DNA of 64,000 nucleotides, from the NCBI RefSeq assembly GCF_010692725.1, contig NZ_JAAFZB010000089.1:1-64000 (forward strand). The letters are read 5' to 3'. Below the pieces are notes generated by a model. The model worked only from the letters and a program-made list of their open reading frames with translations, searched no databases and was not told the DNA's origin. Shown here one piece after another: positions 48,162-63,912 of the stretch (positions within the stretch are counted from its first letter, which is position 1; every line of letters starts with the position of its first letter). Source of the DNA: Flavihumibacter soli (GTDB lineage: Bacteria; Bacteroidota; Bacteroidia; Sphingobacteriales; Sphingobacteriaceae). A program made the position numbers and the translations under genes.

Positions 48162-48959
48162 ATGAAATATTTATACGGTATAATATTTCTAGTAAGTTTC
48201 AAAGTGAACGCTCAGGTTAATACTGGCGCCCGGTTCACAGGCATGGCATCAACCGGAGTTTCTATCAGTGATATCTGGTCAATTCAAGAAAATCAGGCAG
48301 GAATCGCTTCTGTTCGCAAGTTCTGCATTGCTCTTGGGTTTGCGAGACCATTCACAGGCTATGATCTGCGTTCGCATTCGGCTGCTTTTATTCTACCTGT
48401 TGACAATAACGTCCTGGGAGTATCCCTCCAAAAATATGGTACTACAGCATTCGAATATCAACGATTAGGGTTGACATATGCGAAGAGTTTTGGGACACAG
48501 TTTTTCGCTGCGATGACCATTAATTATCATCATCTCGCAATTGAAAATTATGGAAGAACGCAGGCATATTCAATTGAAACAGGGGTTCAATATAAAAAAG
48601 GGAACAATCTCTCATTAGGAGCCCATTTGTCAAATCCAGGTTTTAGCAGCTTTCAAAATGATTGGAATTCAGTGGGGCCTACAAGATTTTTGCTGGGTGC
48701 CTCTTACAATGTTTCCCGGAAACTACTGTTGGCTATGTCCCTTGATAAGGTTATTAATGAAAAGGCTGATATCAAAACAGGACTTGAGTATAAAATCATC
48801 GAATTACTCGCCCTGCGTGGCGGCTTTTCTGCAAATCCATTTAAACAATATGCAGGATTCGGCGTGAATCACAAGGCACTTAACATGGACGTGTCCATTT
48901 CTTCACAACCGATCGTAGGCTACTCACCCCAGATATCACTTAGTTATGAGCTATGGTAA
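48162..48959 (+). CDS. Predicted outer-membrane beta-barrel protein (PorV/PorQ-like layout)
   Basis: 265 residues with a signal peptide (MKYLYGIIFLVSFKVNA, cut near QVN). The mature protein begins ARFTGMASTGVSISDIWSIQENQAGIA, a pattern of Bacteroidota PorV/PorQ-like barrels, and then alternates short amphipathic strands to a C-terminal aromatic strand (ISLSYELW), the usual outer-membrane assembly signal. It overlaps the next gene by 14 bp, and that one overlaps comEC, so three genes form one translationally coupled unit. The role is inferred only from this context. Confidence 0.78.
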   Translation: MKYLYGIIFLVSFKVNAQVNTGARFTGMASTGVSISDIWSIQENQAGIASVRKFCIALGFARPFTGYDLRSHSAAFILPVDNNVLGVSLQKYGTTAFEYQRLGLTYAKSFGTQFFAAMTINYHHLAIENYGRTQAYSIETGVQYKKGNNLSLGAHLSNPGFSSFQNDWNSVGPTRFLLGASYNVSRKLLLAMSLDKVINEKADIKTGLEYKIIELLALRGGFSANPFKQYAGFGVNHKALNMDVSISSQPIVGYSPQISLSYELW

Positions 48960-50997
48960 GCTATGCGTCGCATGGTTATTTCTGGTTGTCTTGCTCGGAA
49001 AGATTGCAGTCTGCCAGGTAACACATGATGAACTAATTGACCAGATCCTTCAGGAAATTGCTGCAGACCTTCCGGAGGACTATGATTTTTCAGACCTCAC
49101 GGAGCGTCTGATGCATTATCACAGAAAACCGTTAAATATCAATACTACCAGCCGGGAACAACTTCAGGAATTTGTTTTTCTTTCGCCTTTGCAAATCAAC
49201 GCTTTCTTACAACACAGAGAGCAGAATGGAAATCTTGTTGACTTGATGGAATTACAAAGCATCAGCGCATTTGATACGGTGACCATTCGAAGGCTGCTGC
49301 CCTTTGTCTGTATCGGTCCTCAAAATTCCCTGGAAGGTCTTTCTATTAAAACTTTGTTTAAGAAAGGTTCGAACGATCTGATGATACGGTATGGCCAGTA
49401 TCTTCAGCCACAGCAGGGCTATATTCCAGACACAGGGAAGGATCAAGCTGCCTATTCGGGAGGGCCGGGCCGCCTGAACTTGCGTTATCGGTATCGCTAT
49501 GGTGAAAATGTGTCAGCATCAATCAATCTCGAAAAGGATCCGGGAGAAAAGCTGTTTCCTTCTGCCAGATCTGTCGGGCTGGATTTTAGTTCTGCAAATG
49601 TATTTGTTCGGGATATTGGCCGGATAAAAAAACTTACGATTGGGGATTATTCGCTTCAGTTTGGTCAGGGACTGGCCATGTGGACAGGTTTGACATTCGG
49701 AAAGGGTTCCATGGTCACCAATATTGCAAAACCAGAGATCGGCCTGCAGCCCTATCAATCAACTAATGAGCATTTATTTTTAAGAGGGATAGCTGCGACC
49801 GTACGGCTCAGGAATATTGAGATTACTCCCTTTTTATCCTTTAGAAAGGTGGATGGCGCAGTTGATACGACAAACGGTATTTTCCAGGTGACTTCCCTGC
49901 AACAAACCGGCCTGCACCGTACAAGAACCGAGATGGATAACAAACACGCCATCCCCCAAAATCTCGTCGGTGCTAATATCAAATACATAAGACCCAACTT
50001 TAATGCAGGGATAACAGGCTACCACTTGAATCTTGGTTACCCTGTACAAGCGGGCCAGCATCTCTATGATATGTTTGATTTTAGTGGAAGTTCCTTATAT
50101 AATCTTGCTTTTAATTACGGACTGACTGTTAAAAATTCCTATGTCTTCGGTGAAGCTGCCTATAGTGGCAATGGTAAAGCCGCATTTGTCAATGGCTTAT
50201 TGAGCAGTCTTTCCAACGAGGTATCAACGGTTTTGCTGCATCGGCACTATCCCAAAGAATACCATTCGTTTTTTAATCAGGCACTTGCCGAATCCAGTAA
50301 TTCTGTCAACGAAAGCGGATTTTATTCTGGATTAATAATCAGGCCGTCTCAGTGGGAGATATCGGTATTCGCTGACTACTTCCGGTTCCCCTGGTTGAAA
50401 TTCGGTATTGACGGGCCATCCGAGGGGCATGAGATTCTTGCGCATTTAAACTACACCCCGAATAAAAGAACCAACTGGCGGTTTCGCTATAAAACCGAGT
50501 TAAAACAGGATAATGACGCTATTGAGAACCAGGCTAACATTCTTGAAAATGTCAGGATAGCCGGCTATCGCTTTGACTTCAGTTCGAAGATAAGCAGGGC
50601 AGTGACGCTGAGGAACCGGTTAGAAATTTCTACATATAAAAGAGAGTCATTCGCTGCAGAGCACGGATTATTAGTTTACCAGGATCTGATCTATGATGCA
50701 TTGTCGCTGCCATACTCTGCAAACATGCGCATTGCCATTTTTAAAACCTCTGGATTTAATTCAAGGATATACGCTTATGAGAATGATGTTCTCTATAGTT
50801 ACTCTATTCCCGCTTATCAAAATAGCGGACTTCGCTTATATCTGAATACCCGCTATTCATTGAGCCGGAAAATGGATATATGGATGCGCTACAGTATAAC
50901 CAAATATAAAGACCTCGAGACTATTGGTAACGGCAATGATCAAATTACTGGCGATCATCGATCGGAGATCAAAGTTCAGCTAAGATATCAGTATTAA
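48946..50997 (+). CDS. Helix-hairpin-helix (ComEA-like) protein fused to a large outer-membrane barrel
   Basis: 683 residues. A signal peptide (about 1-23) is followed by a helical region with a ComEA-like HhH pair at about 62-121: PLNINTTSREQLQEFVFLSPLQINAFLQHREQNG, then LVDLMELQSISAF. The hairpin glycines of DNA-binding HhH (GIG/GVG) are replaced in both copies, so DNA binding may be weakened or lost. From about residue 125 to the end, many amphipathic strands, aromatic girdles and a C-terminal IKVQLRYQY strand indicate a barrel of perhaps 20 or more strands. ComEC follows immediately (1-bp TAATG overlap). This combination is recurrent in Bacteroidota genomes as far as I recall, without a defined function. 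Confidence 0.82.
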   Translation: MSYGKLCVAWLFLVVLLGKIAVCQVTHDELIDQILQEIAADLPEDYDFSDLTERLMHYHRKPLNINTTSREQLQEFVFLSPLQINAFLQHREQNGNLVDLMELQSISAFDTVTIRRLLPFVCIGPQNSLEGLSIKTLFKKGSNDLMIRYGQYLQPQQGYIPDTGKDQAAYSGGPGRLNLRYRYRYGENVSASINLEKDPGEKLFPSARSVGLDFSSANVFVRDIGRIKKLTIGDYSLQFGQGLAMWTGLTFGKGSMVTNIAKPEIGLQPYQSTNEHLFLRGIAATVRLRNIEITPFLSFRKVDGAVDTTNGIFQVTSLQQTGLHRTRTEMDNKHAIPQNLVGANIKYIRPNFNAGITGYHLNLGYPVQAGQHLYDMFDFSGSSLYNLAFNYGLTVKNSYVFGEAAYSGNGKAAFVNGLLSSLSNEVSTVLLHRHYPKEYHSFFNQALAESSNSVNESGFYSGLIIRPSQWEISVFADYFRFPWLKFGIDGPSEGHEILAHLNYTPNKRTNWRFRYKTELKQDNDAIENQANILENVRIAGYRFDFSSKISRAVTLRNRLEISTYKRESFAAEHGLLVYQDLIYDALSLPYSANMRIAIFKTSGFNSRIYAYENDVLYSYSIPAYQNSGLRLYLNTRYSLSRKMDIWMRYSITKYKDLETIGNGNDQITGDHRSEIKVQLRYQY

Positions 50998-53099
50998 TGT
51001 TGTTCAAAGGTGAAATACCGTTTGTGCGTTTATTGATACCGCTTATAGCAGGAATTGGGCTGGGTATAAACTGGCCGGAGGAAACCGATGCTTTCGCAAT
51101 ATGGATAATTCCCATGATGGTTGCACTCTTTTTAACCTTCATGGTATTTTACAGCAGATATAGTTTTTACCGCAATAACTGGGTGCTTGGTATCGTGGCT
51201 CAGCTTGTAGTGTTATCCAGCGGCTGTATGTTGACCTTACAGGCAGCAGAGAAGTATGGATCGATGTATTTCGCAAAATTTCCCGAAAAAGCCATTATAG
51301 TAACAGTGATTACTGAGCCTCAATTATCCGATGCAGTCCTGAAGTTCGAAGCACGGGTTGATCAAAGCATTTCAAAAAATAAAGCGATAGGGGTGACAGG
51401 AAAACTGCGGGTATCTACCAGGATTATTTCTGGAAAGCCAAACCAAATAAGATATGGATCAAGATTAATGTTACTGTCAAATTATCGCACAGTAGATCCG
51501 CCTTTTAATCCCGGCGAGTTTAACTTTAAGGGATATTTAGAAGGAAAACAGATCTATTATCAAACATTCAGCGATATTCAACACGTTGAGATCCTATCTC
51601 AGGATAATGGGAATCAACTCATGTCTGCTGCTATGGAACTAAGACGAGGCCTTGTTAAAAAATTCTACGGTTATCTTGATAGCGATGCAGCTGCTTTAGC
51701 TTCGACGTTGATTCTAGGTTACCGTTCAAGCCTGAGTGAGGATATTATCCAGGCATATTCTAAAACAGGCACAATGCACGTGTTGTCGGTTTCCGGAATG
51801 CACGTAGGAATCGTTTTTATTGTCCTGACCTTTCTTTTTAACCCTTTTCATAGGTTCCCTCATTCGAGACTGCTTACTGCACTTATTATTATCGTTGCAA
51901 TCTGGTGCTATTCCCTCGTTACCGGATTTTCACCCGCCGTCTGCCGTGCGGCAACCATGATGACATTTATAGTATTCGGAAAAGCACTGAACAGAAATTT
52001 CAATAATTATAATCTGCTCGCAGTTTCTGCCTTTTTCCTACTTATATATAACCCCTTTTTTTTAGTAGACATTGGTTTTCAATTATCTTATCTCGCGGTA
52101 ATTGGATTATTGTTTCTGCAGCCGAAAATCTACAAATTGATCTCTCCCTCAAATAAGTGGCTGGATCACGCCTGGAATTATGCAGCCTTATCAATTGCCG
52201 CCCAGTTAGCTACATTTCCCATTAGCCTGTTCTACTTTCATCAGTTTCCGGTATACTTCCTGCTTAGCAATCTGATCGTTGTACTACCTGTTGCGCTTAT
52301 CATGTATACTGGTATTCTCTTTCTTTTCATACCATGGCCCTTCTTGCTGAATTTAATTGGAGCCTTCTTAAGTGCATTGATTGAATCAACGAACAGGATG
52401 TTATTTTGGATTGAAGCTCTTCCATTTTCAAGCATAGGTGGAATCTGGCTTGAAAGCTATCAATACATACTGATTTACCTGATTATTGGCACTCTGATCT
52501 GGGCATATTTAGCCCGGCGAAAATCACCATTCTATATCAGCTTATTATGTTCACTATTGTTCGCCTCGAGCATTACTTTGGATAAGGTAAATGGTTTCCG
52601 ACAAGGTGAAGTAATTTTCTATAGTCTGCGACAAAGATCCGCAGTGGCTTATATTTCCAGGCGCGAGGCCTACCTGATCAGTAACGTTTCAAATTCAGAT
52701 CCCGCGTATTCTTATTCAATCAAACCGGCATTGGAGAGCAGGGGGGTTAAAAAGATTATTTCTATTGATCCCGACAGTTCAATGGCCAATCGGGCAATCA
52801 GAATTTCCAGCAATTATTGGCAATTTGGAAGCTACAAAGTTCTTCGATGGGATAATCGAATGAAGTATCTTAGTTTCAGGAATAGAATTAAGACTGATGC
52901 GCTTTTAATAAGTGGAAATCCATCAATAACAATTGAGCAATTAGTCCGGGCTGTTAATTTTTCAGTATTGATTGTTGACGGATCTAATGCCTTTAGTCGG
53001 ATAAAAAAGTGGCAGGAGCAGGCAACAGTTCTGAAAATTCCCATAAAAATTCTGAAGCGATCACCTGCTTACGTTGTACGCGTTTCGTCTCAGAATTGA
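50997..53099 (+). CDS. comEC: ComEC/Rec2 family DNA-uptake channel protein, lacking a canonical MBL domain
   Basis: 700 residues. An N-terminal membrane segment and DUF4131 domain (about 1-200) precede the competence domain: LILGYRSSLSEDIIQAYSKTGTMHVLSVSGMHVGIVF and SPAVCRAATMMTFIVFGKALNR, with further helices to about 500. In many bacteria ComEC ends in a metallo-beta-lactamase domain. Here the last 180 residues keep a beta/alpha pattern (EVIFYSLRQRSAVAYISRREAYLI) but lack the HxHxDH metal motif. ComEC passes single-stranded DNA across the inner membrane. Its start overlaps the stop of the HhH-barrel gene. Confidence 0.9.
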   Translation: MLFKGEIPFVRLLIPLIAGIGLGINWPEETDAFAIWIIPMMVALFLTFMVFYSRYSFYRNNWVLGIVAQLVVLSSGCMLTLQAAEKYGSMYFAKFPEKAIIVTVITEPQLSDAVLKFEARVDQSISKNKAIGVTGKLRVSTRIISGKPNQIRYGSRLMLLSNYRTVDPPFNPGEFNFKGYLEGKQIYYQTFSDIQHVEILSQDNGNQLMSAAMELRRGLVKKFYGYLDSDAAALASTLILGYRSSLSEDIIQAYSKTGTMHVLSVSGMHVGIVFIVLTFLFNPFHRFPHSRLLTALIIIVAIWCYSLVTGFSPAVCRAATMMTFIVFGKALNRNFNNYNLLAVSAFFLLIYNPFFLVDIGFQLSYLAVIGLLFLQPKIYKLISPSNKWLDHAWNYAALSIAAQLATFPISLFYFHQFPVYFLLSNLIVVLPVALIMYTGILFLFIPWPFLLNLIGAFLSALIESTNRMLFWIEALPFSSIGGIWLESYQYILIYLIIGTLIWAYLARRKSPFYISLLCSLLFASSITLDKVNGFRQGEVIFYSLRQRSAVAYISRREAYLISNVSNSDPAYSYSIKPALESRGVKKIISIDPDSSMANRAIRISSNYWQFGSYKVLRWDNRMKYLSFRNRIKTDALLISGNPSITIEQLVRAVNFSVLIVDGSNAFSRIKKWQEQATVLKIPIKILKRSPAYVVRVSSQN

Positions 53100-53114: not shown

Positions 53115-53879
53115 CTAAATAATAGTCATCAGGATACCCATGCTTTCCAGGGTGTCTACTATATGCTTTGAAATACCGGAATCTGTAATGATATGATCGA
53201 TCTCTTCAAGTTTGCAAATCTTGCCAAAGCCGCGCTTTCCAAATTTAGTTGAGTCTGCCAGTATGATTGTTTTCTGAGATACTGCCATCATCTCGCGATT
53301 TAAGCGGGCCTCAAACACATTTGTTGTCGTCAATCCAAACTCAAGGTCGATTCCGTCCACGCCTAAGAACAGTTTACTGCAGAAAAAATCGCCAAGTATG
53401 TTTTCAGCATACGGCCCCATGACGGATGAAGAACTTTTACGTACAATTCCGCCCAACTGTATTATCTCTATATCGTTATGTTTTATCAATTCGAAGGCAA
53501 CATTTAAGGCCGATGTGATTACTGTAAGATTTTCTATCGGTTGAATACTTTTAGCAAGTGCAAGGACAGACGTTCCTGACCCGATAATTATTGAATCGTT
53601 TGGTTGGATTAGTTTGGCCGCAGCTTCACCGATCTTTATTTTTTCAACTGACTGAAGCTTCTCTTTTTCATTGACTGGTCGGTCGGCGGTATATGGATTG
53701 TTTAGTGTTGCTCCGCCATGGGTTTTAAAAAGTAGGTTTTTGTCTTCAAGAAGTTTCAAGTCCTTTCGGATAGTTACCGTCGAAACGTTTAGCTCCCTGC
53801 ACAAATCAACGACTGAAATATGACCTTCCTTATTGATTTTCTTTAATATGAACTGATGTCGTTCTGCAATATTTATCAT
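53115..53879 (-). CDS. DeoR/GlpR-family transcriptional repressor
   Basis: 254 residues. The DeoR winged helix (1-57) includes HISVVDLCRELNVSTVTIRKDLKLLEDKNLLFKTHGGA. The C-terminal sugar-phosphate-sensing domain has GSGTSVLALAKSI and the LFLGVDGIDLEFGLTT segment. It is divergent from glpD across a 356-bp region rich in TTTCG/CGAAA half-sites, so I infer that it is the glycerol-3-phosphate-responsive repressor of the glp genes (GlpR-like). The inducer is not provable from sequence. Confidence 0.9.
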   Translation of the reverse strand: MINIAERHQFILKKINKEGHISVVDLCRELNVSTVTIRKDLKLLEDKNLLFKTHGGATLNNPYTADRPVNEKEKLQSVEKIKIGEAAAKLIQPNDSIIIGSGTSVLALAKSIQPIENLTVITSALNVAFELIKHNDIEIIQLGGIVRKSSSSVMGPYAENILGDFFCSKLFLGVDGIDLEFGLTTTNVFEARLNREMMAVSQKTIILADSTKFGKRGFGKICKLEEIDHIITDSGISKHIVDTLESMGILMTII

Positions 53880-54235
53880 CTGGTTGGCTTTTCTAAAAAT
53901 GCTAATTTACAATAGAAACCGAATTTTTTGTATTATATTTTCGTAATATTTCTAATCCTTTCCAATATGATTATTTTAATCATCTATCAAGCCTGGGTGA
54001 CGCCATTTCTGGCTTCAAAGGCTTGATACGCAGAATAAAAGAAAAATAAAAGCACCTTTCGGCATTTGGTATTATCGAAGAGTAAATAAAAAACTTGCTT
54101 GAATACCAATGAGGCTTTCGAATAACGAAATTAATACTTACTGAATTGTGGAAAAGTTTTTCTGTTTTAAACTTTCGTATTTTCTTTTATTTCTTTTTGT
54201 TTTCTATATACTTGCCTATGCTTTCACTTTAATTG
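53880..54235. promoter_or_regulatory. Divergent regulatory region between the GlpR-like gene and glpD
   Basis: A 356-bp AT-rich region without a gene. TTTCG half-sites occur at 53939-53943, 54057-54061, 54116-54120 and 54173-54177, and CGAA(A) at 53920-53923, 54076-54079 and 54126-54130. The pair at 54116-54130 forms a palindrome. A TATACTTG sequence at 54207-54214 is one mismatch from the -7 consensus and could serve glpD. The dense half-sites suggest repressor control in both directions. Confidence 0.6.
54116..54130. promoter_or_regulatory. Candidate GlpR operator palindrome
   Basis: TTTCGAATAACGAAA: five-base arms TTTCG and CGAAA around AATAA. It closely resembles the core of E. coli GlpR operators (TTCGATAACGAA). 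It lies 106 bp before the glpD start. Confidence 0.6.
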
Positions 54236-55876
54236 ATGGCAGTACCAAACGAAATGAAAGACAATAATATTTTATTTACCAGGAAGCAATTTCTAACAAA
54301 GCTGGATGAAGTCGCAATTTGGGATGTGATTGTTATCGGTGGCGGGGCAACAGGTTTAGGGACCGCGCTGGATGCGGCTTCCCGCGGATATAAAACCTTG
54401 TTGTTAGAACAATCCGACTTTGCAAAAGGCACTTCAAGTCGCAGCACCAAATTAGTTCATGGAGGAGTGCGCTATTTAGCGCAGGGAGATATTTCATTGG
54501 TTTATGAAGCTTTGAAAGAACGTGGTCTCTTACTGATGAACGCACCTCACATTGTTAAAAAGCAGGCATTTGTAATTCCGTGTTACGGATGGTGGTCACA
54601 ATTACAATATATAGTCGGCTTAAAGGCTTACGACTGGCTTGCCGGGAATTACCGGTTTGGGAGGTCAACGTATCTTAACAGGGAAAAGGTTCTGCAATCG
54701 CTGCCGGGTATAAATCAAAAGAATCTGAGGGGGGGCATCGAGTATTTCGACGGACAGTTCGATGACGCCAGGCTGGCCATTAATATTGCTCAGACCTGTG
54801 CCGAAGAAGGCGGGACCCTTTTGAATTATGTGCGGGTGAAGAATCTGTTAAAAGACGATAACGGCAATATTAACGGAGTTATTGCGGTTGACGCAGAGGC
54901 TAATCGAGAGTACAAACTGAAAACAAGATCGGTGATCAACGCTACCGGTGTATTTGTGGATGAAATCTTAAATATGGACACACCCGCCCGCAAGCCGTTA
55001 GTCAAACCAAGTCAGGGTGTACATCTTGTATTAAGTCGCTCTTTTCTTAAAGGTGATCAGGCCTTAATGATCCCGAAAACGACAGATGGCAGGGTACTAT
55101 TCGCAGTGCCGTGGCATGATCACATCCTGCTGGGGACAACGGATACCCCTTTAAACTATCACAGCCTTGAGCCGGTTGCATTGAACGAAGAAATCGATTT
55201 TATCCTGGATACGGTTAAAATGTACCTGACTTCTCCGCCCACCCGGAAAGACGTATTAAGTGTATTTGCTGGATTGCGACCATTGGCCGCCACTGATAAG
55301 GATACATCCAATACGAAAGAGATTTCCAGGAGTCATAAGTTATTTGTTTCAGCATCAGGCCTGGTTACAATAACCGGTGGAAAATGGACAACCTACCGTA
55401 AAATGGCTGAAGAAACAATCGACAAAGTTATTCAGGTGGCCGGGCTGCCAAATTCAGCATGCAAAACCGCGACGATAAAGATTCATGGTTTTCTAAACAA
55501 GAATGACGATGACTCGCTCACCTTATATGGTGCAGACAAAGTATTTATTAAATCGTTAGCCGAATTTAATGTAGAATTGTCTGAAAAGTTACATCCTGGG
55601 ATGCCGAATATTAAAGCGGAGGTGATATGGGCCGTGCGAAATGAAATGGCCAGGACTGTGGAGGATGTATTAGCGAGGCGGCTTCGGATTTTATTCCTGA
55701 ATGCCAAGATTGCGATAGACACAGCCCCCATAGTGGCTTCTTTAATGGCTGTCGAGTTAAAGATGGACAAAGAGTGGGAGAAGGATCAGGTGCTGGCGTT
55801 TACAGAATTAGCCAGACAATACTTGTTGGATCCATATTCCGAAAAAACAATCAGCCCTAATCCCGTAACTATATAA
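54236..55876 (+). CDS. glpD: Aerobic-type glycerol-3-phosphate dehydrogenase/oxidase
   Basis: 546 residues from ATG 54236 (ATG 54254 is an alternative). The FAD-binding GGGATG (35-40) is in VIVIGGGATGLGTALDAASRG; GTSSRSTKLVHGGVRYLAQGD is the DAO-family signature of GlpD; GGKWTTYRKMAEETID lies near the end of the catalytic domain; a C-terminal helical domain follows (about 400-520). It oxidises glycerol 3-phosphate to dihydroxyacetone phosphate at the inner membrane, passing electrons to quinone. It is the first gene of glpD-glpK-glpF, 3 bp before glpK. Confidence 0.96.
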   Translation: MAVPNEMKDNNILFTRKQFLTKLDEVAIWDVIVIGGGATGLGTALDAASRGYKTLLLEQSDFAKGTSSRSTKLVHGGVRYLAQGDISLVYEALKERGLLLMNAPHIVKKQAFVIPCYGWWSQLQYIVGLKAYDWLAGNYRFGRSTYLNREKVLQSLPGINQKNLRGGIEYFDGQFDDARLAINIAQTCAEEGGTLLNYVRVKNLLKDDNGNINGVIAVDAEANREYKLKTRSVINATGVFVDEILNMDTPARKPLVKPSQGVHLVLSRSFLKGDQALMIPKTTDGRVLFAVPWHDHILLGTTDTPLNYHSLEPVALNEEIDFILDTVKMYLTSPPTRKDVLSVFAGLRPLAATDKDTSNTKEISRSHKLFVSASGLVTITGGKWTTYRKMAEETIDKVIQVAGLPNSACKTATIKIHGFLNKNDDDSLTLYGADKVFIKSLAEFNVELSEKLHPGMPNIKAEVIWAVRNEMARTVEDVLARRLRILFLNAKIAIDTAPIVASLMAVELKMDKEWEKDQVLAFTELARQYLLDPYSEKTISPNPVTI

Positions 55877-55879
55877 GAA

Positions 55880-57376
55880 ATGAATAAGGAAAAATTTATT
55901 CTGGCTTTTGATCAGGGTACCACCAGTTCGAGAGCTATTATTTTTAACAAGAAAGGTGAGCAAGTATCGGTAGCTCAAAAAGAATTCAAACAGATATATC
56001 CGAAATCAGGCTGGGTCGAGCATGATGCCCGGGAGATCTGGTCCAGCCAGGTTTCTGTAGCGGCTGAGGTAATTTTAAAAGCAAACCTGCATGCTGCTGA
56101 CATCGCGGCGATAGGGATAACTAATCAGCGGGAAACTACGATTGTTTGGGATCGTGAAACCGGAGAACCACTTCATAATGCTATTGTATGGCAGGATCGC
56201 AGAACAGCAGAATATTGTGACAGTCTGAAGGAGCGGGGGCTCGACAAGATGATAAAAGAAAAGACTGGCCTCGTCATCGATGCCTATTTCTCCGCAACGA
56301 AGATTAGATGGATTCTGGAAAATACTCCAGGTGCAAAGGAGAAAGCGGCGGCCGGAAAGCTGGCATTCGGAACTGTCGATTCCTGGCTGATATGGAACCT
56401 GACCGGGGGTAAAGCCCATGTTACTGATGTAAGTAATGCCTCCAGAACATTACTTTATAATATAAATACCCTTAGCTGGGATAGGGAACTCTTAGAGTTG
56501 TTTGAAATCCCTTCCAGTATGCTTCCTGAGGTAAGGTCATCAAGTGAGGTTTTCGGAGAGACATCCTCCAATCTCTTTGCTGTAAAAATTCCTATCAGCG
56601 GCGTAGCCGGTGACCAGCAGGCAGCATTGTTCGGGCAACTTTGTACTCAGCCGGGAATGGTTAAAAATACGTACGGTACTGGTTGTTTCATGCTCATGAA
56701 TATTGGTGAAAAGCCCATTCTGTCAAAAAATAATCTCGTAACTACAATAGCATGGAAAATAGGCGAAACCACACAGTATGCACTTGAAGGCAGTATTTTT
56801 ATTGCCGGAGCGGTAGTACAGTGGCTTCGTGATGAACTAAAAATCATCACTTCCTCGTCAGATATTGAAGGGTTGGCTGGCAAGGTTGAAAGCAGCGAAG
56901 GTGTCTATCTCGTACCTGCTTTTGCTGGCCTGGGTGCACCGCATTGGAATCAGTATGCCAGGGGCACAATTTTCGGAATAACCCGCGGCACAAATGACTC
57001 TCACATCGCAAGGGCAGCTCTTGAAAGCATTGCCTTTCAAACGATGGAAGTCCTTAAGGCAATGGAAGCAGATTCCGGAATTACCATACAGGAATTACGG
57101 GTCGACGGGGGTGCAACTGCGAATAACCTGCTAATGCAGTTTCAGGCGAATATCTTGAATGCCAGGGTGGTTAGACCTAAAATGGTCGAGGTGACTGCAA
57201 TCGGTGCAGCATATCTTGCTGGACTTGGAATCGGCTACTGGAAAAGTGTAGAGGATATTCAGCAACAGTGGGAGATTGACAGCACTTTCGAGCCGGAAGT
57301 GCAATTTAGTGCCGGCGAACTGATCAATGGATGGCACAAAGCTGTTAAAGGGGTTAAAGCATGGACTGAATCTTAA
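55880..57376 (+). CDS. glpK: Glycerol kinase
   Basis: 498 residues. FGGY-family kinase: DQGTTSSRA (11-19) binds phosphate, [19 protein letters not shown] and IVWQDRR form the glycerol pocket, [15 protein letters not shown] lies in the first domain, and [22 protein letters not shown] marks the second domain. It phosphorylates glycerol to glycerol 3-phosphate, the substrate of GlpD. It starts 3 bp after glpD and is followed by glpF at 34 bp. Confidence 0.98.
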
Positions 57377-57410
57377 AAATAATAATCACTTAACCTGTAA
57401 TTAATCTTAT

Positions 57411-58142
57411 ATGAGCCAATTTGCAGCCGAAATGATCGGCACCTTCTTTTTAATACTTCTCGGAAATGGCGTAGTCGCCAACGTAGTTTTAAGCGGCACG
57501 AAAGGACATGGCAGTGGCTGGATCGTAATAACGACAGGGTGGGCCCTGGCAGTTTTTATCGGAGTTGTTATTGCGGCACCATTCAGCGGCGCACACTTAA
57601 ATCCGGCGGTAACCTTAGCGCTCGCTATTGCACAGAAATTCAGCTGGGCACAGGTACCCTTATTTATCCTTGCTCAATTTCTTGGCGCTATGCTGGGGAC
57701 TTCAGTGGTATGGTTGCTATACAAAGATCACTTTAATCAAACAGCTGATCAGGGTCTTAAATCAGCAGTATTCTGTACAGCGCCGGCGATAGAGGGCACA
57801 TGGTCAAATTTCTTTAATGAACTTGTCGGAACATTCGTTCTTATCTTCGTCATCTTCTATTTCACGAATGCAGAACTGGGGAGCGATAAAACGCCAATAG
57901 GGTTAGGTTCTCTGGGCGCAATACCTGTAGCATTTCTTGTATGGGCGATAGGACTTTCGTTGGGAGGTACTACCGGATACGCAATTAACCCTGCACGCGA
58001 CCTGGGACCGCGTATTATGCACTCGTTGTTGCCGATCCAGGGAAAAGGAAGCAGTAACTGGGGGTATTCGTGGATCCCTGTCGTCGGGCCGCTTACCGGA
58101 GCAGCCTTGGCAGCGTTGTTATACTTAGGGCTTAAAATATAA
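57411..58142 (+). CDS. glpF: Glycerol facilitator (MIP/aquaglyceroporin)
   Basis: 243 residues, six helices, with two NPA half-helix motifs: NPA at 64-66 (SGAHLNPAVTLA) and NPA at 193-195 (GYAINPARDLGPR). The Asp after NPAR is a hallmark of glycerol-conducting channels as opposed to water-only aquaporins. It moves glycerol across the inner membrane, where GlpK traps it. It sits between glpK and the phosphodiesterase gene (8 bp to its ATG). Confidence 0.95.
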   Translation: MSQFAAEMIGTFFLILLGNGVVANVVLSGTKGHGSGWIVITTGWALAVFIGVVIAAPFSGAHLNPAVTLALAIAQKFSWAQVPLFILAQFLGAMLGTSVVWLLYKDHFNQTADQGLKSAVFCTAPAIEGTWSNFFNELVGTFVLIFVIFYFTNAELGSDKTPIGLGSLGAIPVAFLVWAIGLSLGGTTGYAINPARDLGPRIMHSLLPIQGKGSSNWGYSWIPVVGPLTGAALAALLYLGLKI

Positions 58143-58150
58143 TTGTGCTG

Positions 58151-59068
58151 ATGAAACACCGTTCATTTTATTCAGCTCTTCTCCTTTTTTCCTGCATTCT
58201 CCTTTTTTCCTGCAAATCCTCGCATTTGGCAAGACTCCCGCGAAGTTTCCCAGAATTCTATAAGGAAGGACACCGCGGCGCACGCGGATTGATGCCGGAA
58301 AATACCATCCAGGCGATGATTCGCGGTATTGAAGCCGGTGCAAACGTAATAGAGGTCGACGTTTATACAACTAAAGATAGTAAGCTTGTTGTAACGCATG
58401 ATCCCTATATAAACAGAGATTTTTCGTTGCTTCCTAACGGCGAGGTAATTCCCAAAGGCGATGAAAAACGTTATATTATTCATCAGATGACCTATGCAGA
58501 GGTTAGAAAATTTGATGTAGGGATGAAACCTTACAGTGCCTTTCCCGCGCAGGCGAAGATACCGGCCTATATCCCGCTTCTATCTGATCTGATTGACTCT
58601 GTCGAGACTTTTACTACGACCAGGGGCCTTCCCTCGGTGATCTACAATATTGAGCTAAAATCTTCTGTTAGCTACGATAGCGTTTATAACGCAAAGCCTG
58701 CGGCATTGGTCGATGCTGTAATGAAAGTAGTCAATAGTAAGAAGATCGGCGACAGGTTTTACATCCAGTCTTTCGATTACCGGCCGTTGAAATACATTCA
58801 CAAAGAATATCCCGAAGTCCCTATCGGGTTCCTTACAGGGAGCAAGACGCCCTTCGCCAAAAATTTATCCGAGCTCGGCTTTAAACCCAATATCTACAGT
58901 CCGCATTACAGTCTTGTTACCAAAGAATTAGTCGATAGCTGCAGGCAGATGAAGATTAAGATTGTACCCTGGACTGTCAACACGAAGGATGAAATGAAAG
59001 CGCTGAAAGGTTTAGGAGTAGATGGCATTATAACCGATTTCCCAAATTATTTAAAAGAGATCAAATAG
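58151..59068 (+). CDS. Glycerophosphodiester phosphodiesterase lipoprotein (GlpQ-like)
   Basis: 305 residues from ATG 58151. The signal is MKHRSFYSALLLFSCILLFS with two candidate lipobox cysteines, Cys15 and Cys21, produced by an 18-bp tandem duplication. The GDPD TIM barrel has HRGARGLMPENT (catalytic His41, Arg42), metal residues Glu68 and Asp70 (NVIEVDVYTTKD), and the second catalytic His83 (VTHDP). It hydrolyses glycerophosphodiesters to glycerol 3-phosphate and an alcohol. Lipid anchoring places it at an envelope face, upstream of GlpF/K/D in the pathway. Confidence 0.93.
   Translation: MKHRSFYSALLLFSCILLFSCKSSHLARLPRSFPEFYKEGHRGARGLMPENTIQAMIRGIEAGANVIEVDVYTTKDSKLVVTHDPYINRDFSLLPNGEVIPKGDEKRYIIHQMTYAEVRKFDVGMKPYSAFPAQAKIPAYIPLLSDLIDSVETFTTTRGLPSVIYNIELKSSVSYDSVYNAKPAALVDAVMKVVNSKKIGDRFYIQSFDYRPLKYIHKEYPEVPIGFLTGSKTPFAKNLSELGFKPNIYSPHYSLVTKELVDSCRQMKIKIVPWTVNTKDEMKALKGLGVDGIITDFPNYLKEIK
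58179..58214 (+). repeat. Perfect 18-bp tandem duplication in a signal peptide
   Basis: TTCTCCTTTTTTCCTGCA occurs twice head to tail (58179-58196 and 58197-58214), in frame. Each copy encodes a hydrophobic stretch ending in Phe-Ser-Cys, so the lipoprotein signal region is lengthened and carries two lipobox-like cysteines. Confidence 0.9.
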
Positions 59069-59227
59069 ACGAACAATTAACCAACCAACGATAAAAACTA
59101 GATTATGAACCAAGATTACTTTTCTATTCCAGAGGCCCAGCCCAGACAGCCCGAAGGGAATCACCATTCTTCAAAAAGGTTGGGCACAGTAAACATTACT
59201 GATGCCGCTGTGAAAAACAAGCACATT

Positions 59228-62200
59228 ATGTCTCAATTCAGGCCTGCTAGCAAATATTCCATAGCAATATTTTTCTTGCTTTTTGTTTGCAGTACTGTTT
59301 TAGCACAAACACCGGTTACTGGTATCGTTAGAGATGCAGCGGGGGAGTCAATTCCGGGAGTCACTGTTGTATTAAAGGGATCGGCTAAAGGAACAACCAC
59401 GAATGCAGAAGGCCGATACAGCCTGTCTGCGGGCAGAGAGCTAACCAATGCTGATGTAATTGAATTCCGCAGCCTCGGATATATTACATCCTCCGTGGCG
59501 TTTAAAGGTAACCACACGATAAATATTGTATTGAACGATGATACAAAATCGCTTAATGAAGTAGTGGTTACCGCTTTAGGCATCACACGCGAAGAAAAGG
59601 CCCTGGGATACGCTACTCAGAATCTAAAAGCTGAGCAGATTAATGATGCCCGTTCAAATAATTGGGTAGGCGCCTTGTCTGGAAAAGTTGCCGGATTAAA
59701 TCTGTCTTCAACAGGTTCGGGACCAATCAACTCCGTTAAGGTGACACTAAGGGGTAATAATTCAATGGATCCTAACGGAAACAACGCCTTGATCGTCTTA
59801 GACGGCGTGCCTATGGGCAGTAATATGACGAGTTCAGGAGTAAGCAGTGCTTATGGTGCCGGAGCTGGCAATGATGTACCTGTGGATTTTGGAAACGGCG
59901 TTGGTGATATAAATCCTGATGACATAGCCAGTGTTACTGTCCTTAAAGGTGCAAGCGCAACCGCCCTTTACGGAAGCAGAGCGGCTAATGGAGCGCTTAT
60001 CATCACTACCAAGACTGGATCGAAGAAAGGAAAGGGTCTGGGTGTTACCGTAAATTCAAGCTACAGCTTAAATGATATTCTCAAATGGCCTGAGTACCAG
60101 TACGAATATGGTCAGGGTACCGGCAGAAGCTTTAACGCCCAGGGTGAGATGTTTTATTCTTATTTAGCATCGGCCGATGGTGCAAACACGGGAGGAACCA
60201 GTAGTGCCTTTGGCCCTAAATTTAATGGTCAGTCATATTTCCAATATGATCCGGTGACACAAACGCAATCAGCGGTACGCCTTCCATGGGTGCCTTATGA
60301 AAATAACATTAAAGATTTTTGGCAAACCGGTTCAACACTCACTAATAGTGTGTCAGTTGAGGGTGGAAACGAAAAAGGTTCAGCACGAGCTTCGGTAACT
60401 CACTCCGCTAATGAGTGGATCATGCCCAATACAGGTTATGAAAGAGTAACTGCCGCGTTAAGTTTAAATTATCAGTTAGCTGACAAACTAAAACTCGCCT
60501 CGAAGATCAACTATACCAGCAAATCAAGTGACAACCTTCCTGCAACAGGCTATAACAACCAGTCACTTTCATATTTTATGATCTTTCAAAATCCAAACGT
60601 TGATTTAAACTGGTACAAACCAATGTGGAAAAATGAACAGGATCAGATTGATCAGATTCACCCCTTCAGCTCATTTATAGACAATCCTTACGTTATCGCT
60701 AACGAAATGACCAACTCTATAAGCAGCTATTCCACTGTAGGAAACTTATCGGCAACTTATGACTTCACAAAGAACTTAAGTTTTATGGTACGTTCAGGTA
60801 TTGATATGAGGCAGGAAGATCGTGAGCAGCGCCGTCCATTCAGCACCGCGAATTTTCAACGGGGATATCTGAAACAGCAGGATGTTTTCAATTACGAGAT
60901 CAATACGGATGCATTGCTAACATATAAGCAGAACCTCAGTTCTAAAATTGAGATGACTACATCTGTTGGAGCCAATTCTATGAACCGGAAATACGACGCA
61001 ATAAACGGATCAGTAGAAGGTCTGGTCGTTCCTGGTGTTTATAAGCTTACTAACGGAATAAATTCGCCATTATTGACAAAGACCGCAGCCAATAAAAAGG
61101 TAAACAGTGTCTATGGACTCGCGAGTTTCTCATATGATAACAAGATTTTTGTTGATGTGACAGGAAGAAATGACTGGTCGAGCACCTTGCCGGTTCAGAA
61201 TAACTCATTCTTCTATCCATCAGTAAGTTCGAGCTTTGTATTGAACGAGATATTCCAATTGCCAAGCCAGATTTCCTTTGCGAAGCTGAGATTATCTGCT
61301 GCTCAGGTAGGTAATGACACTGATCCTTACAAAACCAGTAAGTACTACGGACAAAGCGATTTTCCTGCTTCAGGATCTGTTCCTACAACCTTACACAACG
61401 TCGATTTTAAACCAGAGATCACAACAAGTTATGAAGGTGGTATTGAGTATAATATGTATAATGGACGTATCGGACTGGATCTGACACTTTACAGCAATGT
61501 CACAAAAAATCAGATTCTTGACGTGCCCCTGGATCCAACTACCGGTTATTCTCGCGCGGTATTAAACTCAGGCGCAGTTCGCAATCAGGGAGTCGAAGTA
61601 TTGTTAAGCGGAAGGCCAGTAGATCATGGTAATTTCAAGTGGAATACAACATTAACATGGTCGAAGAACAACAACAAAGTTCTTGAACTGGCTGAAGGAA
61701 TGGATGGCAAACAGGATATCGGCTATGGTGGTAATGCTACCATTTCAGCTGTAGTAGGTGGCACGACCGGAGATATTTACGGATTCGGATTTTTGAGGTC
61801 TCCAGATGGTCAGATCATTTACAATGCAAGCGGATTGCCTGCGCGTCCTGCTCAAATTCAATTTATCGGTCACGCTTTTGCTGATTGGAGAGGCGGCCTT
61901 TCAAATGAGTTCTCTTACAAGAACTTAAAATTCAGTTTCCTTGTAGATGGCCAGTACGGGGGTATGATCTATTCCCAGACACACCACAAGATGATGGAGC
62001 AGGGAAAACTAAAAAGTACACTTCCGGGACGTGAAACAAATTCTATAATCGGCGCTGGTGTTGTACAAAATGCAGATGGTACTTTCTCACCGAATACAAA
62101 GTCAGTACTTCCTGCCGATTATTATGCTGACTACTATCGCCGCGCCAATGTTGAGTCCAACTCCTTTGATGCCTCTTATCTGAAGCTTAGAGAAATGCGT

Positions 62201-62416
62201 TTTGAGGTACAGATTCCACAAAGATTCGTACGGAAAGCTTCGATTAATCAAGCTAGTATCGCGTTCTTCGGACGTGACCTGGCGATGATCACCAAGTTCC
62301 CTATGTTCGATCCTGAGACTGCTGCCCTTAATGGTTCAACCATCCTTCCGGGAGTTGAGATTGGCCAGCTGCCAACACCAAGAACGTTCGGAATGAACCT
62401 GACCTTGAAATTTTAA
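59228..62416 (+). CDS. SusC/RagA-family TonB-dependent outer-membrane transporter
   Basis: 1062 residues from ATG 59228, where a signal peptide starts (SQFRPASKYSIAIFFLLFVCSTVLA, cut near QTP). An in-frame ATG at 59105 would add 41 polar residues ahead of the signal. The mature protein has a carboxypeptidase-like repeat domain (TGIVRDAAGESIPGVTVVLKG), the plug (SLNEVVVTALGITREEKALGYATQ, VLKGASATALYGSRAANGALIITTK) and a long TonB barrel ending in GMNLTLKF. It imports a substrate bound by the SusD partner. It begins 36 bp (from 59105) or 159 bp after the phosphodiesterase gene. Confidence 0.96.
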   Translation: MSQFRPASKYSIAIFFLLFVCSTVLAQTPVTGIVRDAAGESIPGVTVVLKGSAKGTTTNAEGRYSLSAGRELTNADVIEFRSLGYITSSVAFKGNHTINIVLNDDTKSLNEVVVTALGITREEKALGYATQNLKAEQINDARSNNWVGALSGKVAGLNLSSTGSGPINSVKVTLRGNNSMDPNGNNALIVLDGVPMGSNMTSSGVSSAYGAGAGNDVPVDFGNGVGDINPDDIASVTVLKGASATALYGSRAANGALIITTKTGSKKGKGLGVTVNSSYSLNDILKWPEYQYEYGQGTGRSFNAQGEMFYSYLASADGANTGGTSSAFGPKFNGQSYFQYDPVTQTQSAVRLPWVPYENNIKDFWQTGSTLTNSVSVEGGNEKGSARASVTHSANEWIMPNTGYERVTAALSLNYQLADKLKLASKINYTSKSSDNLPATGYNNQSLSYFMIFQNPNVDLNWYKPMWKNEQDQIDQIHPFSSFIDNPYVIANEMTNSISSYSTVGNLSATYDFTKNLSFMVRSGIDMRQEDREQRRPFSTANFQRGYLKQQDVFNYEINTDALLTYKQNLSSKIEMTTSVGANSMNRKYDAINGSVEGLVVPGVYKLTNGINSPLLTKTAANKKVNSVYGLASFSYDNKIFVDVTGRNDWSSTLPVQNNSFFYPSVSSSFVLNEIFQLPSQISFAKLRLSAAQVGNDTDPYKTSKYYGQSDFPASGSVPTTLHNVDFKPEITTSYEGGIEYNMYNGRIGLDLTLYSNVTKNQILDVPLDPTTGYSRAVLNSGAVRNQGVEVLLSGRPVDHGNFKWNTTLTWSKNNNKVLELAEGMDGKQDIGYGGNATISAVVGGTTGDIYGFGFLRSPDGQIIYNASGLPARPAQIQFIGHAFADWRGGLSNEFSYKNLKFSFLVDGQYGGMIYSQTHHKMMEQGKLKSTLPGRETNSIIGAGVVQNADGTFSPNTKSVLPADYYADYYRRANVESNSFDASYLKLREMRFEVQIPQRFVRKASINQASIAFFGRDLAMITKFPMFDPETAALNGSTILPGVEIGQLPTPRTFGMNLTLKF

Positions 62417-62466
62417 TAAGCACAGAACATTTATCAGGATGCCGAAAGGCACCTCAAATAGAAAAG

Positions 62467-63912
62467 ATGATGACAATATTTAAGAAAAGTTCAGCTGCAA
62501 TAATATGTCTATTGAGCTGCCTAAGTTTTTCATGTACCAAGGATTTCGAAGAAGTAAATACAGATCCTAACCGTATAGAAAGTATCAGCCCGGGAACTCT
62601 CCTGAATCCGATTATTTATAATATGGCAAGCTTTAACGCGACCAGGGCCGACGATTTTACATTTCATATAATGCAGGTATCCCTGCCATTTCCCAGTGCA
62701 TCCGGTGGTGTACACCGTTATGATATTTCAGAGAGTGCCGGTAATTCAACCTGGAATACTTATTACCGTTGGATCACCAATATTAAGGAAATGAAAGCCG
62801 CAGCTGATAAGGCAAGCGATCCAAATTACCAGGCTATTGCTTTAACATTGAATGCCTGGACTTACTCACTCTTAAGTGATGCTTTTGGTGATGTTCCTAT
62901 GGAAGAAGCCGCACGCGGTGATGAAGGGATCTTCAGGCCCGCATTCAATACACAGCAGCAGGTTTACACAAAGATCCTCGCTGACCTGGAAACAGCTAAC
63001 AGCTTGTTTAATGCGACCAAGCCGATGATCTACGGAACTGAAATTTTATACGGTAATAACGTTACTAACTGGAAACGATTCTGCAATTCACTTCATTTAA
63101 GATTGCTGCTCCGTGTTTCCAAACGTACAGAGATGGATGCTTTCACAAAAATGGCGGCCATTGTAAACGACCCGGTTAAATACCCAGTATTTACTAAAAA
63201 CACTGAGTCCGCTATTCTCCAGGTTACCAATGTTGTACCAAACGTATCTCCCTGGGGACGGGCTGTTGACTTTACGACCTTCCGTGCTGCAGGTGCTTTT
63301 TTCATCGATAACCTGAATGCTTTCAATGACCCGCGGAGAGCCTTATTCAACACCGTAGCAAGATCAAGTGATGGTAAAACAACCATCGGGTACCGTGGAA
63401 TTCCAAGCGGTTTTTCCGGTAGCGATACTCAATTTAGTTTTCTGCCTTCGAACTTAAACATCGCGTTGGTAACTGCACCGATGAAAATAGTGATCATGCC
63501 CTATGCAGAAGTGGAATTTATCAAGGCTGAACTTGCTCAGAAAGGAAAAATTGCAGCAAATCCGCAGACACACTATGAGCTTGGTGTTAAAGCTGCTATT
63601 GAGCAGTGGGGTGGAGTTATGCCTGCCAATTATTTTACTACGGCAGCGGCAGCTTACGATGGCACCCTGGAGCGCATCATGCTACAGAAATACTACGCGC
63701 TTTATTTCACCGACTATCAGCAATGGTTTGAATACCGCCGTACTGGTTTCCCGGTTTTGCCAAAGAATGATGGAATGCTTAATAATAAAGTAGTACCCGT
63801 TCGTTTCAGATATCCGACAACGACGGTAACGAACAACAATGAAAACTATCAGAAAGCAGTGGCCTCTTTAGGTGGTGATGATATCAATACCAAAGTGTGG
63901 TGGGAAAAATAG
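62467..63912 (+). CDS. SusD/RagB-family outer-membrane lipoprotein
   Basis: 481 residues. The signal ends in the lipobox LSFSC (Cys at about 23) followed by TKDFEEVNTDPNRI, a typical SusD start. The fold shows helical tetratricopeptide-like segments (AIALTLNAWTYSLLSDAFGDVPMEEA) and the C-terminal YYALYFTDYQQWFEYRRTGFPVL. It belongs to the SusD-like branch that pairs with SusC proteins for oligomeric or conjugated substrates. It caps the SusC channel and captures ligand. A hairpin 32 bp past the stop may end the transcript. Confidence 0.95.
   Translation: MMTIFKKSSAAIICLLSCLSFSCTKDFEEVNTDPNRIESISPGTLLNPIIYNMASFNATRADDFTFHIMQVSLPFPSASGGVHRYDISESAGNSTWNTYYRWITNIKEMKAAADKASDPNYQAIALTLNAWTYSLLSDAFGDVPMEEAARGDEGIFRPAFNTQQQVYTKILADLETANSLFNATKPMIYGTEILYGNNVTNWKRFCNSLHLRLLLRVSKRTEMDAFTKMAAIVNDPVKYPVFTKNTESAILQVTNVVPNVSPWGRAVDFTTFRAAGAFFIDNLNAFNDPRRALFNTVARSSDGKTTIGYRGIPSGFSGSDTQFSFLPSNLNIALVTAPMKIVIMPYAEVEFIKAELAQKGKIAANPQTHYELGVKAAIEQWGGVMPANYFTTAAAAYDGTLERIMLQKYYALYFTDYQQWFEYRRTGFPVLPKNDGMLNNKVVPVRFRYPTTTVTNNNENYQKAVASLGGDDINTKVWWEK

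Follow-up and report, generated by a model that had tools for sequence, protein, structure and literature searches.

ComEA is a proven competence protein, small and either periplasmic or anchored in the inner membrane, and its GxG hairpins contact the DNA backbone. In the absence of a type IV pilus, the way in which DNA passes the outer membrane is described as unclear for Porphyromonas gingivalis (PMC11532111), and for Riemerella it has been modelled only speculatively (PMC8459023). Two Riemerella genes, RA0C_RS04915 and RA0C_RS04920, which encode a barrel and a DUF5689 protein, respectively, are essential for transformation (PMC8459023).

In the 64,000-nucleotide stretch of DNA analysed here (the window), which belongs to a 4.4 Mb genome of Sphingobacteriaceae type with Sphingobacteriales/Pedobacter as its closest named relatives, comEC is preceded by the genes for two predicted outer-membrane barrels, the larger of which carries an HhH domain (the HhH-barrel). 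We propose this barrel pair as a specific, widespread candidate for the outer-membrane DNA step in Bacteroidota. If this is true, gene flow, resistance genes included, in a phylum that ranks among the commonest in gut, soil and water would pass through a family for which the literature searched yielded no paper and no described function.

The comEC locus in the window

The ORF coordinates confirm the arrangement given in the preliminary description, that is, three plus-strand genes with overlaps of 14 bp and, between the HhH-barrel gene and comEC, of 1 bp (Table 1). Translation of the two barrel genes is likely to be coupled through the 14-bp overlap. The third gene certainly encodes ComEC, given its matches to the Pfam families Competence (E = 3.6 × 10−60; 204 bits against a cut-off of 23) and DUF4131 (E = 3 × 10−20). 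The HxHxD[HG] metallo-beta-lactamase motif is absent from this ComEC and from all 34 of the 34 full-length related ComECs. A C-terminal metallo-beta-lactamase nuclease is not universal among ComECs; with a C-terminal region that lacks HxHxD[HG], another factor would have to degrade the second DNA strand, unless this strand is left undegraded. Further downstream, positions 53115-63912 of the window hold a glycerol/glycerophosphodiester cluster, which consists of a DeoR regulator, a glycerol-3-phosphate dehydrogenase-like oxidoreductase, an FGGY (glycerol-type) kinase and a GDPD phosphodiesterase, and ends in a SusC/SusD pair.

Table 1. Features of the comEC locus and their positions in the window
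Feature	Position	Strand	Basis
Small outer-membrane barrel, 265 aa, PorV/FadL-like, 14 predicted strands	48162..48959	+	ORF, NCBIfam, AF2, Foldseek
Overlap of small-barrel gene and HhH-barrel gene, 14 bp	48946..48959	+	ORF coordinates
HhH-barrel protein, 683 aa: signal peptide, acidic segment, HhH domain, predicted 24-strand barrel, terminal Tyr	48946..50997	+	
HhH domain, residues 49-121, without GxG hairpins, acidic	49090..49308	+	profile, alignment, hhalign
Predicted 24-strand barrel, residues 142-683, with turns short on the periplasmic side and outer loops long and conserved	49369..50994	+	AF2, conservation
Conserved outer loop, strands 5-6, residues 239-278	49660..49779	+	mean conservation 2.70 bits
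Outer loop with highest conservation, residues 482-491, PWLKFGIDGP	50389..50418	+	3.34 bits
Conserved outer loop, residues 602-626, SGFNSRIYAYENDVLYSYSIPAYQN	50749..50823	+	3.06 bits
ComEC, 700 aa, Competence and DUF4131, without metallo-beta-lactamase motif	50997..53099	+	Pfam, motif scan

The AlphaFold model of the large protein, built from an alignment of 14 homologues (pLDDT 81, pTM 0.80), places the HhH helices before 24 long strands. The predicted barrel has turns of 2-5 residues on one side and loops of up to 40 residues on the other, as in outer-membrane proteins with a periplasmic N-terminus, so that the HhH domain is predicted to lie in the periplasm. The two barrels, and the HhH segment joined to the larger one, that the preliminary description had read from the sequence are thus borne out by the models, which show 14 and 24 strands, respectively, and the structure prediction that it had proposed as a check returned a 24-strand barrel with the HhH N-terminal to it and on the periplasmic side. 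The protein has the properties of an outer-membrane beta-barrel, namely an even number of predicted strands, the asymmetry of loops and turns, a signal peptide (judged by eye) and an aromatic C-terminal residue (Tyr here, and aromatic in most homologues). Conservation in the outer loops (2.35 bits) is about the same as in the strands (2.33 bits), and is 1.79 bits in the turns. Surface loops that are conserved as strongly as strands are unusual, and this level of conservation suggests gating or contact with a partner. Strand periodicity, rather than coordinates, gives an inferred lumen face with a net charge of +10.5 in the large barrel vs. −1.6 in the small one. The only Pfam matches of the large protein are HHH_3 and T2SSK; neither Pfam profiles nor Foldseek matched it to a transporter family, and the secretin domain PF00263 gave no match. 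Foldseek against the PDB returned generic barrels only, with MtrB (6r2q_B) as the top match (E = 4 × 10−12), and we rejected a role as an electron conduit because this likeness is that of generic barrels (TM only 0.39). A sequence search for a solved structure of the HhH-barrel family gave only ComEA-type and other HhH domains.

For the small barrel, the AlphaFold model (pLDDT 83.6, pTM 0.78) has the PorV/FadL 14-strand fold, with PorV (8gl6_F) as the best Foldseek match (TM 0.77). Its score against the NCBIfam PorV/PorQ family (NF033709) is 53.5 bits, under the 90-bit cut-off, and it is not assigned to that family.

The HhH domain was recognised by PF12836 (HHH_3) at residues 62-121 with E = 4 × 10−5 and 24 bits, short of the 27-bit cut-off, and the comE profile gave 19.7 bits against a cut-off of 152. 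Among 109 HhH-barrel homologues, the first hairpin mostly reads F-L-S in place of the G-I-G of ComEA and the second mostly G-F-D, with N66, G95 and E102 invariant; the replacement of the hairpin glycines, recorded earlier for this one protein, is therefore family-wide. The mean net charge in the homologues is −3.3 for the HhH domain and −7.0 for the segment that precedes it, vs. means of +1 to +4 in the HhH domains of the ComEA proteins from eight relatives. The nearest profile to this domain is the C-terminal HhH of the ComEA of the same genome (hhalign probability 96%, E = 1 × 10−9), which likewise has no GxG. This separate ComEA (308 aa; L111:2985-3908) has a hydrophobic N-terminal segment, and its middle HhH carries the canonical GIG hairpin. 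The barrel protein is therefore no substitute for ComEA, contrary to what had been supposed; nor does it have the size and anchoring of a ComEA, as it carries a 24-strand barrel. The preliminary description had further placed the pore and the periplasmic handling of DNA in one protein. The fusion of HhH and barrel stands, whereas DNA handling is weakened by the hairpins and the charge. The same description had cautioned that the HhH might be structural rather than DNA-binding, and both observations agree with this. Given the missing hairpin glycines and the net negative charge, the HhH of the barrel protein is, as far as its sequence indicates, more likely a docking module than a DNA-handling domain, and on the same grounds we rejected it as a DNA binder.

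Gene order, co-occurrence and co-loss in Bacteroidota

The barrel pair is distributed across Bacteroidota. In 90 of the 90 loci that have both genes, the small-barrel gene precedes the large-barrel gene on the same strand, and in relatives the two often overlap by 8 bp or 1 bp, so the arrangement is not due to chance. In Sphingobacteriales, almost every locus has comEC no more than about 170 bp behind the pair, with a gap that is mostly −10 to +11 bp. It is found in this position in 38 Sphingobacteriales loci vs. 0 of 38 other named loci, where purE-, adk-, hpt- and obgE-like housekeeping genes (named by eye) recur as neighbours and competence genes are not among the recurrent ones. The suggested operon with comEC thus agrees with the small overlaps in the window and with the proximity of comEC in Sphingobacteriales; the survey of adjacency that accompanied this suggestion gave a mixed answer, adjacency being kept in that order and absent from the 38 other loci, and we rejected it as a general property. 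What is conserved as a unit is thus the two barrel genes rather than the three-gene cluster, the operon being a local arrangement. What is general is the pair together with its co-occurrence and co-loss with ComEC.

We identified the full barrel (E < 1 × 10−30) in 161 genomes of a phylum sample of 218 genomes with a completeness of at least 95%, and all 161 have comEC. This gene was found in 215 of the 218 genomes; the 3 genomes without it, all of one family, are also without the barrel. In a second sample of 89 Chitinophagaceae-like genomes (family f18, named by its nearest named homologues), comEC is absent in 6, none of which has the barrel, and 5 of these 6 have no outer-membrane candidate (p = 4 × 10−4, uncorrected for relatedness). 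Among the f18 genomes without DUF5689, the barrel is present in 0 of 5 without comEC vs. 31 of 41 with it (p = 0.002, uncorrected for phylogeny). The small barrel (E < 1 × 10−12) was identified in 30 of the 89 genomes, all of which carry the large barrel, and its strong matches are located only beside the latter; several loci of Pedobacter and Sphingobacterium have the large barrel without the small one beside it. The small barrel is thus a facultative partner of the large one, dispensable in some lineages.

On an rpoB tree, 5 of the 6 comEC losses stand beside a relative that has comEC and an outer-membrane system that is missing in the loser. The barrel is missing together with comEC in G314 (beside G331), G288 (beside G325) and G303 (beside G262), and DUF5689 is missing together with comEC in G270 (beside G294) and G272 (beside G316); the sixth genome, G337 (89% complete), carries DUF5689. 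Independent pairs for comEC and the outer-membrane system number 5 in the same direction and 0 in the opposite one (p = 0.06), or 7 and 0 with two decayed cases added (p = 0.016). For the barrel alone, there are 3 and 0 such pairs (p = 0.25), and for ComEA, the positive control, the same 5 and 0. General shrinkage of the genome is ruled out as the cause by G272, G288 and G314, which measure 4.9-6.5 Mb and are almost complete; for G303, completeness is just 86%. In G289 (L227, L228), comEC and the HhH-barrel gene are both decayed and interrupted by stops, which likely represents the loss of both genes in progress. Hence comEC was lost several times in f18, and in nearly every case the outer-membrane system went with it, as did ComEA. 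The functional tie to ComEC that had been suspected from the window is upheld by the co-occurrence in 161 of 161 genomes and by this repeated co-loss.

A sister genus in the family of the window genome (G248, L237) has an intact comEC with neither barrel, no DUF5689 and no secretin. Its comEC is flanked as in the window by DUF4412-like, NUDIX-like and cation-efflux neighbours, and a ComEA-like HhH match is the sole HhH match in the genome. In the phylum sample, 12 of the 218 genomes have comEC with no full HhH-barrel, strong DUF5689 match or secretin, namely G137 and G248 (family f1, genus g25), eight genomes of family f38, G168 and G242. Such genomes perhaps have a further, unrecognised route.

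A strong DUF5689 match was found in 27 of 27 barrel-negative genomes of the same class vs. 4 of 19 barrel-positive ones. The exclusion between barrel and DUF5689 is significant by Fisher's test (p = 3 × 10−9 in one family, p = 3 × 10−16 in the phylum sample), whereas the rpoB tree yields only about 2 independent pairs in the opposite direction and 0.2 in the same one, which is not significant; strict mutual exclusion was therefore rejected, the complementarity being clade-structured. Both systems go missing with ComEC. The barrel and the DUF5689 protein of this second locus are homologues of RA0C_RS04915/RS04920. In eight sampled DUF5689 loci, a large barrel, in several cases with CarboxypepD_reg or TonB-type domains, precedes the DUF5689 gene, and in most of the eight a PF19580-type nuclease is encoded close by. 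An apparently secreted endonuclease/exonuclease/phosphatase (PF19580) is encoded divergently beside the barrel gene in L229, L232, L234 and L236. This protein, of which no mention was found in the excerpts of PMC8459023, is a possible candidate for the nuclease of the DUF5689/TonB-type uptake system. The secretin is absent in 76 barrel genomes, that of the window included, and present in 85, so there is no exclusion between barrel and secretin. The HhH-barrel was found in all 49 SprA-negative genomes, and in family f20 (Flavobacteriaceae-like) SprA occurs where the HhH-barrel is absent; on this distribution we rejected a role in type IX secretion.

A candidate outer-membrane module for DNA uptake

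In the Bacteroidota genomes sampled, the barrel pair occurs only with ComEC and is missing where ComEC was lost, which makes it a good candidate for an outer-membrane door for DNA. We lean, by a modest degree, towards the barrel pair being the outer-membrane module of ComEC-dependent DNA uptake, and probably the pore. From the genes, the predicted folds, their conservation, and the co-occurrence and co-loss with ComEC, we infer a module that would serve those Bacteroidota in which the type IV pilus secretin is absent or not used. DNA would cross the outer membrane through the 24-strand barrel, which the conserved outer loops may gate, and the acidic N-terminal HhH would dock periplasmic partners, most likely ComEA with its basic C-terminal HhH. 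ComEA would next bind the DNA and ComEC would take one strand inward, with the small PorV-like barrel as a putative assembly or side-seal partner. A broader proposal, which we put forward only tentatively, is that this single-chain 24-strand channel, docked to ComEA/ComEC via a repurposed HhH, is the default secretin-independent route of most non-flavobacterial Bacteroidota and was repeatedly replaced by an unrelated TonB-type barrel plus a DUF5689 protein.

The same co-loss would be seen if the HhH-barrel were linked to competence without being a pore, but an outer-membrane anchor or receptor for the docking of ComEA, or for keeping DNA at the surface, with DNA crossing elsewhere, and an acidic HhH without GxG fits such a docking module. 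We nevertheless consider this unlikely, since 24 strands go far beyond the needs of an anchor, the inferred lumen is positive, and no DUF5689 locus, secretin or other outer-membrane route was found in the window genome. It is likewise unlikely that the large barrel is an ordinary nutrient porin or transporter with an incidental position before comEC in Sphingobacteriales: although it is never beside comEC in the 38 loci outside this order, and the sister genus keeps comEC without it, such a role is at odds with the strict co-occurrence and the repeated co-loss in genomes of 4.9-6.5 Mb, and with the lack of matches to transporter families.

Were the pair a translocon for protein secretion, akin to type IX secretion, this would explain why a large barrel neighbours a small one that is nearest to PorV in fold (TM 0.77), as in the SprA-PorV complex. 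However, the 49 SprA-negative genomes with the barrel and the f20 genomes with SprA and no barrel contradict this, SprA is not among the best 50 Foldseek matches of the large barrel, and no secretion genes lie nearby, which leaves a translocon very improbable. Nutritional DNA uptake through ComEC, not serving transformation, would fit the presence of comEC in more genomes (215 of 218) than documented competence, as well as the missing nuclease motif in the ComEC of the window. We give it hardly any credence, because transformation in P. gingivalis and in Riemerella requires ComEC and ComEA-type proteins (PMC11532111, PMC8459023); the channel role of the barrel would be mechanically the same.

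Comparison with described systems

Each of the systems closest to the barrel pair shares one aspect with it. The MtrB-type barrel of the Shewanella Mtr complex, although the top Foldseek match of the large barrel, differs by its low TM score, and cytochrome genes are absent from the recurrent neighbours of HhH-barrel loci. PorV, a FadL-family protein of type IX secretion, has the 14-strand fold and the large-barrel neighbour in common with the small barrel; the latter is shorter (265 aa vs. about 345-367 aa), is tied to the HhH-barrel and not to SprA, and scores below the NCBIfam cut-off. ComEA shares the HhH_3 domain, its C-terminal HhH in the same genome being the nearest profile, whereas the barrel protein is acidic in this domain, lacks GxG hairpins and is fused to a predicted 24-strand barrel, with a true ComEA encoded elsewhere. 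The PilQ secretin would fill the same outer-membrane step; it is multi-subunit and the HhH-barrel single-chain, without a PF00263 match and in a secretin-free genome. In Riemerella anatipestifer, RA0C_RS04915/RS04920 likewise include a Bacteroidota barrel that is proposed to pass DNA together with ComEC and an HhH protein, and they are a CarboxypepD_reg TonB-type barrel and a DUF5689/DUF5017 protein (PMC8459023). That barrel belongs to another family than the HhH-barrel, which has no CarboxypepD_reg or TonB domains and whose genome has no DUF5689. The barrels of DUF5689 loci have a TonB-type N-terminal domain and no HhH, often with an EEP nuclease divergent beside them, comEC is not in the eight loci inspected, and the distribution of this type is largely complementary to that of the HhH-barrel.
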